From: Gemmatimonadaceae bacterium
GTDB taxonomy: Bacteria; Gemmatimonadota; Gemmatimonadetes; Gemmatimonadales; Gemmatimonadaceae
Assembly: GCA_019752115.1 (NCBI GenBank)
Contig: JAIEMN010000018.1
Coordinates: forward strand, 1-64,000
Length of the DNA: 64,000 nt
Direction of reading: 5' to 3'
In this document: positions 30,145 through 62,052 of the stretch, one piece after another
How positions within the stretch are numbered: the first letter of the stretch is position 1
Layout of the letters: each line of letters starts with the position of its first letter
The notes under the pieces: model-generated
The model's database searches: none
What the model was told of the DNA's origin: nothing
Seen by the model: the letters and a program-made list of their open reading frames with translations, nothing else
Program-made: the position numbers and the translations under genes

Positions 30145-30200
30145 CCGCCCCTTGTGGAGCGGCCCTGCATGGATCACGCGCCGATCACCCGAGGGTGATC
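30145..30200 (-). promoter_or_regulatory. paired hairpins in the infC-rpmI gap
   Basis: Two short stems lie between infC and rpmI. One is a perfect inverted repeat, GATCACCC-2 nt-GGGTGATC (30183-30200), starting at the infC stop. The other has arms CCGCTCC and GGGGCGG around ACAA on the transcript (30145-30162). In E. coli the L20-controlled structure lies in this same part of the operon, so these could be translational control elements; no pseudoknot was demonstrated. Confidence 0.4.
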
Positions 30201-30717
30201 ACTTCGGCGCGAGGATCATCGTCATGGACTTCCCTTCCATGGTGGGGGCGCTTTCGACCTTCGCGAGATCGGCCAGTTCCTGCCCGACCCGCTCGACCAC
30301 CGCCCGCCCCAGCTCGGGGTGCGCGATCTGTCGGCCGCGGAACATCAGCGTCACCTTCACCTTGTTGCCTTCTTCGAGGAATTTCCGCGCGTGGCGGGTC
30401 TTCGTATCGAAGTCGTGATCATCGATCCCAGGGCGGTACTTCACTTCCTTGAGATGGATGATGTGCTGCTTCTTCTTCGCGAGCCGCGCCTGCTTGGCCT
30501 GTTCGAACTTGAACTTCCCGTAGTCCATGATGCGAACGACGGGGGGCCGAGCCGCTGCCGCCACCTCGACGAGATCGAGTCCCTGCTCCGCGGCCATCGA
30601 CAGTGCGGCGTCGACTTCCAGGATGCCCAGCTGACTGCCATCGGCACCGATCACGCGAACGGGGCTGATCCGGATCTGCCGGTTCACCCGAGGCGGACGC
30701 TTCGTCGAATCCTGAAT
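30199..30717 (-). CDS. infC: translation initiation factor IF-3
   Basis: IF-3 proofreads the start codon and keeps subunits apart. From the ATT at 30717 the product is 172 residues, the usual size: the N-domain has RVNRQIRISPVRVIG, a Lys-rich linker follows, and the C-domain ends KSMTMILAPK. The ATT has a CCGGAG motif 8 nt upstream, and no ATG, GTG or TTG lies nearby in frame. An AUU start is the hallmark of infC in many bacteria, where IF-3 discriminates against its own start. An in-frame ATG at 30813 would add 32 unrelated residues across a terminator hairpin and has no SD site. Confidence 0.93.
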   Translation of the reverse strand: MQDSTKRPPRVNRQIRISPVRVIGADGSQLGILEVDAALSMAAEQGLDLVEVAAAARPPVVRIMDYGKFKFEQAKQARLAKKKQHIIHLKEVKYRPGIDDHDFDTKTRHARKFLEEGNKVKVTLMFRGRQIAHPELGRAVVERVGQELADLAKVESAPTMEGKSMTMILAPK

Positions 30718-58759: not shown

Positions 58760-60034
58760 CTACGGCAGCGGGACCTCAGCGGTGGCCACCGAGTGCGGCC
58801 GCGTCACGCCCTTGGTGACCGTCACCCGCGCGCCGTGCTGACGCAGCCGACCAATCGCCCGCTCATCCAGCCGCGCCTTGATCACGATGACGTCGTCGTC
58901 GTGCTCCTGCTCCAGCACTTCGCCGTCACGGTGCACCTCGGCGATGAGGCGCCCGTTCGATGCCGGGATACGCACTTCGAGCACCGGCCGTTCATTGCGC
59001 AGCGCATCGCGCAGCGCGGTCTTGAGCGGTTCGAGGCCGTCGGGCGCCAGCGCCGACACGAACAGCGAGTTCGGCATCAGATTCGCCACCCGCGCGCGCA
59101 CGGCCTCGAGCATGTCGGCGGGTACCGCATCCATCTTGTTCATCACGTACAAGAGCGGCCGATCGTGCAGCCCCAACTCCGTGAGCACGCCGTCCACCAC
59201 GTCGCGCTGCTCCTCCCACGCGGGGTGACTCGCGTCGATCACATGCAGGAGCAGATCGGCCTCACGGGCTTCGCTGAGCGTCGCGCGGAACGACGCCACC
59301 AGATGGTGCGGCAGCTTCCGAATGAAACCCACCGTGTCGGTGAGCAACGCCGTGTACCCATCCCCGATCTCGACCTCACGGGTGAGCGGATCGAGCGTGG
59401 CGAACAGTCGGTCTTCTACAAATACCAACTGATCAGCCGCCATCGCCCGCAGGACCGACGACTTCCCGGCGTTGGTGTACCCGACCAGCGCCACGCGAAA
59501 GTGCGTGCGCCGCCCCTGGCGCTGGATCTCGCGCGCCCGTTCCACATCAGCCAGCCGCTCCTTGAGCACGCGGATGCGGTGCTGAATGAGCCGTCGGTCG
59601 GTTTCGAGCTGCGTTTCACCCGGGCCGCGCATACCGATGCCACCCCGCATCTTCTCGAGGTGCGTCCACATGCGCGTCAGGCGCGGCAGCATGTATTCCA
59701 GCTGCGCGAGCTCGACCTGCATGCGCGCCTCGCTGGAGCGCGCGCGCGTGGCGAAGATGTCGAGGATGAGTTCCGCACGATCCATCACGCGGGTCCCCAC
59801 GATCTGCTCGACATTCTTGCCCTGCGCCGGCGTCAGCTCATCGTCGAAGATGACGAGGGTGGCACCGAGCTCCTGAATGCGCACTTTGAGCTCTTCCACC
59901 TTGCCGCTGCCGAGATAGGTGCTCGGATTGGGGCGATCCAGCTGCTGGGTGACGTGACCCACCACCACGGCGCCGGCGGTATCCGTGAGTCGGCCGAGCT
60001 CTTCGAGATGTTCCTCCACGAAGTGCTTCGCCAT
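58760..60034 (-). CDS. hflX: GTPase HflX (ribosome-splitting factor)
   Basis: 424 residues from the first in-frame ATG. HflX N-domain (YLGSGKVEELK, FDDELTPAQGKNVE, RVMDRAELILDIF), GIGMRGPGETQLETDRR, G1 GYTNAGKSS, G3 DTVGFIRKLPHH and G4 NKMD are present, then a C-terminal domain. HflX splits 70S and 50S complexes after stress. Conserved N-terminal sequence continues upstream of the ATG in the same frame (ERAILVSAPFKRS, compare E. coli EQAVLVHIYF). The real start is therefore probably near the CTG at 60088 or beyond; see findings. Confidence 0.95.
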   Translation of the reverse strand: MAKHFVEEHLEELGRLTDTAGAVVVGHVTQQLDRPNPSTYLGSGKVEELKVRIQELGATLVIFDDELTPAQGKNVEQIVGTRVMDRAELILDIFATRARSSEARMQVELAQLEYMLPRLTRMWTHLEKMRGGIGMRGPGETQLETDRRLIQHRIRVLKERLADVERAREIQRQGRRTHFRVALVGYTNAGKSSVLRAMAADQLVFVEDRLFATLDPLTREVEIGDGYTALLTDTVGFIRKLPHHLVASFRATLSEAREADLLLHVIDASHPAWEEQRDVVDGVLTELGLHDRPLLYVMNKMDAVPADMLEAVRARVANLMPNSLFVSALAPDGLEPLKTALRDALRNERPVLEVRIPASNGRLIAEVHRDGEVLEQEHDDDVIVIKARLDERAIGRLRQHGARVTVTKGVTRPHSVATAEVPLP

Positions 60035-60084
60035 GCTCCGCTTGAACGGGGCGCTGACGAGGATGGCCCGCTCGATGGGCGGCG

Positions 60085-60147
60085 TCAGAGAGATGATATC
60101 GCGACTGATGGGAACCGGTCCGGAGATGCGTCCAGCGAAGCCTGCAT
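60085..60147 (-). CDS. possible 20-codon upstream ORF of hflX
   Basis: ATG at 60147 opens a 20-codon frame (MQASLDASPDRFPS...) whose TGA overlaps a CTG in the hflX frame as CTGA. It may be a coupled leader ORF, or the true 5' end of hflX separated by a frameshift at a CTCTCT run. No good SD site precedes it. Confidence 0.3.
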   Translation of the reverse strand: MQASLDASPDRFPSVAISSL

Positions 60148-60166: not shown

Positions 60167-60673
60167 TCAGCGCCCGTTGCCCGCCACTGAAGAGTAGCGC
60201 CCGGTCCGGTCGTACGGACGGGTAAAGTTGCCCAGCGGCGTCGCCACCGTGAAATCGCCGCGCACCCGGTAGTTCACCTGCCCCTTTTGCAGGAGCGCCC
60301 GGCCGGCCTGGCCGATACCGGCGTAGGTGAAGCTCACCGGCAGCCGCACGACCGACGAATCGTTCTTGGGCACGACGAACCGGCTGTCGAGCGCGCCACT
60401 GCCGAGCTTCACGGAGTCGACGTCAACCAGATACGTCATCTTGAGCGCATCGAGCTTGTAGCCATTCGGGTTATACACCGACAGCACCACATCGACGCTC
60501 CCGCCGGTGAGGCCGAGCCCGGTGACAGTCACTTCCTTGAGCGTCACCACCGGCTCCTTGAACGACGCGCGACCGAGCGTGGCGCAGCCCGCGAACAGCA
60601 CCGTACCGGCGACCACACTGGTGCGCAGCCAGCGGCGACGCCCTGCGGCGAAGATGGACGAGACAGCCTTCAT
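60167..60673 (-). CDS. LEA-type-2 (WHy-domain) lipoprotein
   Basis: 168 residues. A basic n-region, hydrophobic core and lipobox LFAGC near residue 29 mark a lipoprotein. The mature part (KEVTVTGLGLTGGSVDVVLSV, YNPNGYKLDALKMTYLVDV) is an Ig-like LEA_2 fold. Members of this class in bacteria are periplasmic or outer-membrane-attached and linked to desiccation or stress in some cases; the role here is unknown. ATG with GGGAGA 6 nt upstream, overlapping the rarA stop as ATGA. Confidence 0.85.
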   Translation of the reverse strand: MKAVSSIFAAGRRRWLRTSVVAGTVLFAGCATLGRASFKEPVVTLKEVTVTGLGLTGGSVDVVLSVYNPNGYKLDALKMTYLVDVDSVKLGSGALDSRFVVPKNDSSVVRLPVSFTYAGIGQAGRALLQKGQVNYRVRGDFTVATPLGNFTRPYDRTGRYSSVAGNGR

Positions 60674-62052
60674 GATTCGTCTCCCTGAGAACGATGGTCC
60701 GATGCTGCGTGATCGTCGCTGCGCCCTTCCGCCTTGGCGCGCAACGACGCCCACCAGCTCAAGCGGCGGGCAATGTCCTTCTCGAATCCGAACGGGCCGG
60801 GTTCGTAGAACGTCACATCGCCCAGGACGGTGGGTAGGTACGACTGCGGGATATATGCCTCCGGCACAGCGTGCGCGTATTGGTACCCGTCGCCATTGCC
60901 GAGTTCCTTCATGAGCGAGGTCGGGGCGTTCCGCAGATGCATGGGGACGGGCGCCGCGGGTGTGTCGCGCGCCACATCCATGGCGGCCTTCCAGGCCTCG
61001 TAGACGCGGGCGGACTTCGGCGCCGTGGCCAGATACACCGCGGCCTCGGCGAGCGCGAGCTCTCCCTCCGGTGACCCGAGGCGCTCGTAGGTCTGCGCGG
61101 CCGTCATCGCCACGCTGAGCGCCTGCGGATCGGCCAGCCCGACGTCCTCGGTGGCCATCCGGATCATGCGTCGCGCGATGTAGCGTGGATCTTCGCCGCC
61201 CTGAATCATCCGCGCCAACCAGTACAGCGCGCCCTGCGGATCGCTCCCGCGAAGTGCCTTGTGCAGCGCGGAGATGAGGTTGTAGTGCTCCTCACCCGAC
61301 TTGTCGTACCGCGGCGCCCGATACTGCATCGCCGCTTCGACCTGCGCGGTGGTCAACTCGGCGTGGTCGTCCATGAGCGCCGCCGCGGCCTCAAGCACTC
61401 CCAAGAGCTTGCGTGCGTCGCCGTCCGCACTCTCGGCGAGCACATGCTTCGCCTCAGCGGTGATGCGCAGATCTCGCGCACCGAGGCCGCGATCCTCGTC
61501 GGTGAGGGCGCGATCGATCAGCGCCTCGAGCTCTTCGGTGGGGATCGCCTCGAGCACCATCACTCGCAGGCGCGAGAGCAGTGCTCCGGTCAGGGCAAAG
61601 CTCGGATTCTCGGTGGTCGCGCCGATGAGAATGACCGTTCCCGCCTCGACGTGCGGCAGGAAGGCATCCTGTTGCGCGCGATTGAATCGATGGATCTCGT
61701 CAACGAACAAGATGGTGCCACGGCCACGATCGCGACGATCCTGCGCTTCCGCCACGATCTCGCGCACCCGCGCGACGCCGTCGCTCACCGCCGAGAAACT
61801 CACGAACTGGGCGTCCACACTCTGCGCCAGCAACCGAGCGAGGGTCGTCTTGCCCACGCCCGGTGGGCCCCAGAAGACCATCGAATCCACCACACCGCGC
61901 GCGAGCGCTTCGCGGAGCGGCATCCCCGGCGCGAGGAGATGCTTTTGCCCGAGGTACTCCTCGAGCGTACGCGGACGCAGCCGCGCCGCCAACGGCTCGG
62001 GCACCCGCGAGGAGAAGAGCGAGGGTCCCGTCGGACGCGTGGGCTTACTCAT
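60670..62052 (-). CDS. rarA: replication-associated recombination protein A (MgsA/RarA)
   Basis: 460 residues, AAA+ clamp-loader-like ATPase: RLRPRTLEEYLGQKHLL, Walker A WGPPGVGKTTLA, Walker B LFVDEIHRFN, GATTENPSF sensor, and the C-terminal tetramerisation domain (MATEDVGLADPQAL, GNGDGYQYAHAVPEAY). Acts at stalled forks. Overlaps the unknown gene upstream by ATGA. Confidence 0.95.
   Translation of the reverse strand: MSKPTRPTGPSLFSSRVPEPLAARLRPRTLEEYLGQKHLLAPGMPLREALARGVVDSMVFWGPPGVGKTTLARLLAQSVDAQFVSFSAVSDGVARVREIVAEAQDRRDRGRGTILFVDEIHRFNRAQQDAFLPHVEAGTVILIGATTENPSFALTGALLSRLRVMVLEAIPTEELEALIDRALTDEDRGLGARDLRITAEAKHVLAESADGDARKLLGVLEAAAALMDDHAELTTAQVEAAMQYRAPRYDKSGEEHYNLISALHKALRGSDPQGALYWLARMIQGGEDPRYIARRMIRMATEDVGLADPQALSVAMTAAQTYERLGSPEGELALAEAAVYLATAPKSARVYEAWKAAMDVARDTPAAPVPMHLRNAPTSLMKELGNGDGYQYAHAVPEAYIPQSYLPTVLGDVTFYEPGPFGFEKDIARRLSWWASLRAKAEGRSDDHAASDHRSQGDES

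Follow-up and report, generated by a model that had tools for sequence, protein, structure and literature searches.

We propose that the gene for the ribosome-splitting GTPase HflX in the window, i.e., the whole 64,000-nucleotide stretch of Gemmatimonadaceae DNA analyzed here, is translated from a conserved weak AUC start codon which keeps HflX low and probably makes its synthesis subject to discrimination by IF3, a reading in which we have high confidence. The assignment of the start to the ATC at 60109 to 60107 on the minus strand is strongly supported by comparison with relatives, and the nature of this codon suggests a link of hflX to IF3.

The hflX coding sequence extends from 58760 to 60109 on the minus strand, and translation from the AUC would yield a 449-residue protein with the N terminus (f)Met-Ser-Arg-Asp-Ile-Ile-Ser. 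In profile searches, this protein matched TIGR03156 with 447.5 bits (equivalog cut-off, 216.75) and contained the Pfam domains GTP-bdg_N (PF13167), GTP-bdg_M (PF16360), and MMR_HSR1 (PF01926; the G domain). Its best matches in the PDB are solved HflX structures (5ady HflX, E = 3e-89), and homology to solved ribosome-bound HflX suggests that the protein encoded in the window splits ribosomes. Counting from the ATC, residue 14 is the first to align to TIGR03156, and the first ATG in the frame, at 60034 to 60032, is residue 26. A start at this ATG would therefore cut genuine HflX sequence, removing the first ~12 positions of the model. Upstream of the ATG, the minus-strand frame is open back to a TGA at 60169 to 60167, 26 codons before a CTG at 60088 to 60086; the part leading up to the ATG encodes ...ISRDIISLTPPIERAILVSAPFKRS-M, and the full open stretch from the TGA to the ATG translates as GAHPRLHAGFAGRISGPVPISRDIISLTPPIERAILVSAPFKRS-M. 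The TGA is the stop codon of the upstream gene on the same strand, which is from the list of open reading frames (60167 to 60679), encodes an LEA_2 domain (PF03168, 62.8 bits), and ends 57 nt before the ATC. The first-pass annotation of this DNA had placed the HflX N terminus upstream of the first ATG, and the profile alignment together with the conservation of the upstream codons as protein supports this claim. The frame upstream of the ATG is open, as had also been described, but the conserved open stretch comprises 25 codons rather than 18.

To locate the onset of conservation, we extended the frame upstream to the first stop codon in congeners and in members of the family. In both groups, similarity sets in at a single codon, the ATC at 60107 to 60109, seven codons upstream of the CTG, and continues with AGT CGC GA(A/G/T/C), giving (M)SRE.ISLTPPVERAILV. 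Codon 1 is ATC in 25 of 25 congeners with zero synonymous change. The Ile codon at position 6 is ATC in 13, ATT in 11, and ATA in 1 of the same genomes and, thus, varies synonymously, which makes the invariance of codon 1 unlike the behavior of an ordinary Ile codon. From codon 2 onward, the differences among the 25 congeners are mainly synonymous, and codons 2 to 25 (60035 to 60106, minus strand), which would be lost with a start at the ATG, are under purifying selection at the protein level. At codons −12 to −5 and −3 to −1, by contrast, nearly all differences are nonsynonymous and in-frame stop codons occur, including a TAG at codon −3 in 8 of 25 congeners and stop codons at −12 in 7 of 25. 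A synteny scan of all genes in the window against five congeners, which is noisy, includes antisense open reading frames and gene overlaps, and is not a clean genome-wide census, indicated that the genomes have a canonical start codon in common for most of the other genes and that hflX has a sharp onset of conservation without one: ATG, GTG, and TTG were absent near the hflX onset in all six genomes. RNA folding of the region from −35 to +21 in seven congeners revealed no structure stronger than that of shuffled sequence.

We then compared 150 distinct hflX 5′ ends of the class, drawn from order-level relatives, 80 named Gemmatimonadota contigs, and class-level families. After hand correction of two loci (L039 and L040), and with a few of the class-level picks being uncertain by a codon or two, the codon at the start position is ATC in 90, ATT in 23, ATA in 12, ACG in 2, GTG in 13, and ATG in 10 of these 5′ ends, i.e., a weak codon is present in 127 and GTG or ATG in 23 of the 150. 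The two ACG codons, at L183, which has the Shine-Dalgarno sequence GGGGAGG, and at L104, point to possible initiation at ACG. The canonical members (L090, L111, L146, L078, L121, and others) mostly carry GTG or ATG at the identical alignment position, as in L090 (GTG AGT CGC GAG) and L078 (ATG TCA AAA GAG). This replacement of ATC by GTG or ATG at the same position is direct comparative evidence that the codon there is the initiator. In f10, the other class of the phylum, hflX starts with TTG. On an HflX tree of 156 rows, built with a quick method and labeled as weak or canonical from the 5′ ends, the minimum number of changes between weak and canonical starts is 12 in all, compared to 26 changes among weak codons. 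Thus, the start codon drifts within ATC, ATT, and ATA far more than it changes to ATG, although ATC to ATG is a single base change. Across the class, one weak codon has often been exchanged for another while the start stayed weak, a pattern that speaks for selection on the weakness as such. Separately, we detected no match to hflX in 18 of 191 well-completed Gemmatimonadota genomes (G035, G098, G101, G113, G124, G126, G144, G146, and others), and hflX was probably lost repeatedly in the phylum, in about a tenth of the well-completed genomes.

A Shine-Dalgarno match of at least 4 nt at a spacing of 4 to 10 nt precedes 99 of the 127 weak starts, compared to a mean of 17.6 and a maximum of 28 for shuffled upstream sequences. 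The Shine-Dalgarno position corresponds to codon −4, which is AGG, CGG, or GGG in 24 of 25 congeners and GGA in the window; most congeners have AGGA or AGGT here. The window genome's own hflX Shine-Dalgarno sequence is weak and consists only of this remnant GGA (60119 to 60121, minus strand), 9 nt before the ATC. Strong sequences are frequent in class-level members, e.g., GAGGAGGTAGCAGCCG-ATA in L195 and GGAGGTAGCAGG-ATT in L178. We also observed a subclade of the Gemmatimonadaceae in which hflX largely lacks a Shine-Dalgarno sequence and in which ATC and GTG or ATG are mixed at the same position (L078, L109, L111, L115, L118 to L123, L146, and L158 against L093, L110, L114, L127, L129, and L150). 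This subclade may have moved to Shine-Dalgarno-independent or leaderless initiation. Because it lost the Shine-Dalgarno sequence and several of its members use GTG or ATG, the weak hflX start is not indispensable.

Other readings of the hflX 5′ end were weighed against these data. The first-pass annotation treated the CTG at 60088 to 60086 as the only start-like codon, leaving ATC, ATT, and ATA out of consideration, and suggested that HflX starts at this CTG after a leader open reading frame, with which it overlaps in a CTGA; such a start would amount to termination-reinitiation. CTG is usable as a weak start codon, and both the CTG in its CTGA context and the 20-codon, ATG-started open reading frame that ends there (60147 to 60085, minus strand) are present in the sequence. 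However, the CTG is codon 8 of hflX, a conserved Leu position at which 15 of the 25 congeners have CTC, 7 have CTG, and 1 each have TTG, TTA, and CTT; codons 2 to 7, which precede it, show conservation at the protein level; and neither the overlap nor the 20-codon open reading frame is conserved, the latter being present in the window alone among the congeners. The comparison with congeners thus refutes a CTG start behind a leader, which we consider highly improbable; the CTG is an ordinary Leu codon, and the 20-codon open reading frame arose by chance and stands outside the proposed mechanism. A second suggestion of that annotation was that slippage in a phase-variable CTCTCT run, or a sequence error in it, hides a single fused HflX that starts at an ATG. 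The short CT run exists, and the two frames would be joined by a shift of 2 nt, but the run differs between genomes codon by codon through substitution and not in length, and ~150 independent relatives, among them complete genomes in one contig, are arranged in the same way with no ATG upstream; the relatives refute this reading and leave it with practically no probability.

The ATG at 60034 itself is the start that a gene finder of the Prodigal type would pick, in which case the conserved upstream stretch would have to be something else. An ATG at this position in relatives had been put forward as evidence against an upstream N terminus, but among the 25 congeners codon 26 is ATG solely in the window; moreover, the codons upstream of it change mainly by synonymous substitution and are part of the HflX model, and a start at this ATG is accordingly very unlikely. 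It is just as hard to maintain that the ATC is an internal Ile codon and that HflX is made as an extension by read-through or frameshifting from the LEA_2 gene. In the window, the frame is indeed open back to the stop codon of that gene, but many relatives have in-frame stop codons within the last three codons ahead of the ATC, the intervening region is unconserved, and GTG or ATG replaces the ATC in some lineages.

As a comparator for the ATC start, we used infC, which encodes IF3 and is located 30 kb from hflX in the window (30199 to 30717, minus strand; TIGR00168, 229 bits). Its start codon is ATT (30717 to 30715), as in E. coli, and the relatives in the family have ATT, ATC, or ATA at this position. 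In most of the class, infC has a weak start (ATC or ATA), while the start is apparently CTG in the order-level family f2 and GTG in f7 and f10. As controls in the same relatives, frr, which encodes the recycling factor, starts with ATG in 28 of 28 and lepA with TTG or ATG in 24 of 24. Since these two genes and most genes in the synteny scan have canonical starts, a weak start is not a general property of these genomes. Strict covariation of the start types of hflX and infC, for which we tested the order- and class-level families, does not hold everywhere: hflX has ATG and infC has CTG in G041 and G053, and hflX has ATC or ACG and infC has GTG in the f7 genomes G084 and G179. Two further observations concern infC itself. 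In G035 (genus g7), in which no hflX is detectable, infC (L243) reads AGGTAA ATG ACA ATA CAG and may have gained an ATG two codons upstream of the weak start. Some single genomes of the class have two copies of infC, i.e., G103 (C1:988873 and 3499523) and G089 (C221 and C464).

IF3 discriminates against initiation codons whose third position pairs weakly (PMC10158994), and infC and the Streptomyces gene sigR are repressed by IF3 via noncanonical starts of a kind that gene finders miss (PMC5472188). In S. aureus, AUU and AUA starts yield about 10 to 30% of what AUG gives (PMC13009471). HflX, which acts under stress by splitting 70S ribosomes, is not needed by E. coli during normal growth, and an excess of its mitochondrial homologue GTPBP6 leads to the accumulation of free subunits (PMC9067457). 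We suggest that the AUH codon of hflX pairs poorly with initiator tRNA at the third base and is discriminated against by IF3; initiation would thus be weak, and HflX would be scarce. HflX synthesis should then increase, like that of IF3 from infC, whenever IF3 activity drops or initiation becomes less stringent. IF3 keeps the subunits apart and HflX splits ribosomes, so that two subunit-dissociation factors would be under one initiation-stringency signal. We tentatively extend this to the idea that IF3 and HflX form a small initiation-stringency regulon in the class Gemmatimonadetes, with AUH start codons subject to IF3 discrimination in both genes; lower IF3 activity would then raise both the factor that prevents subunit association and the one that splits ribosomes. 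This idea, which we regard as possible but somewhat short of probable, is limited by the lack of strict covariation of the hflX and infC starts and by the subclade with GTG or ATG and without a Shine-Dalgarno sequence. The main rival accepts the AUC start and holds that it serves solely for constitutive low expression, without a response to the level of IF3. The dispensability of HflX and the effect of excess GTPBP6 fit such constitutive throttling, as does E. coli pcnB, which limits its expression with AUU according to work cited in PMC13009471. On the other hand, sensitivity to IF3 is expected of any AUH start (PMC10158994; PMC5472188), and infC shares the weak start in most of these genomes. 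Constitutive throttling is a serious contender to which we give a little less than an even chance. As the weak start belongs to a gene whose product works beside IF3 in the cycle of the ribosomal subunits, a direct connection of initiation stringency with ribosome splitting becomes testable.

Dependence on a weak start that IF3 discriminates against is known for very few bacterial genes besides infC, and gene finders that accept only ATG, GTG, and TTG truncate such genes; for HflX, the N terminus is corrected here for the whole class. In the papers that we searched, we found no link of hflX to a noncanonical start. As judged from its sequence, hflX would join the few genes whose weak starts are under selection (infC, pcnB, sigR, and ccpN), as it has a codon other than ATG, GTG, or TTG at the onset of conservation, conservation of this arrangement across species beyond chance, and, in relatives, a Shine-Dalgarno sequence at the proper spacing. 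The Staphylococcus genes cvfC1 (AUU) and ccpN (AUA) similarly have conserved AUH starts with Shine-Dalgarno motifs (PMC13009471); they are other genes, and their starts were shown experimentally, whereas the hflX start is assigned by comparison only. Another translational GTPase needs a weak start for its full length in isolated species, whereas the hflX start is class-wide with turnover of weak codons. Streptomyces sigR, which has a GTC start and is repressed by IF3 (PMC5472188), resembles hflX in being a gene other than that for IF3 with a conserved noncanonical start that gene finders miss. However, sigR has GTC in one genus and a strong ribosome-binding site, whereas hflX has ATH across a whole class, encodes a ribosome-splitting GTPase, and has Shine-Dalgarno sequences of variable strength. 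Another close parallel is infC of E. coli and other bacteria (AUU, AUC, or AUA; autoregulation by IF3), which, like hflX, is a gene of the ribosome-subunit cycle with an AUH start conserved over a long range. In contrast to IF3, HflX is not the discriminating factor, and any control of hflX through its start codon would be exerted in trans rather than by autoregulation.
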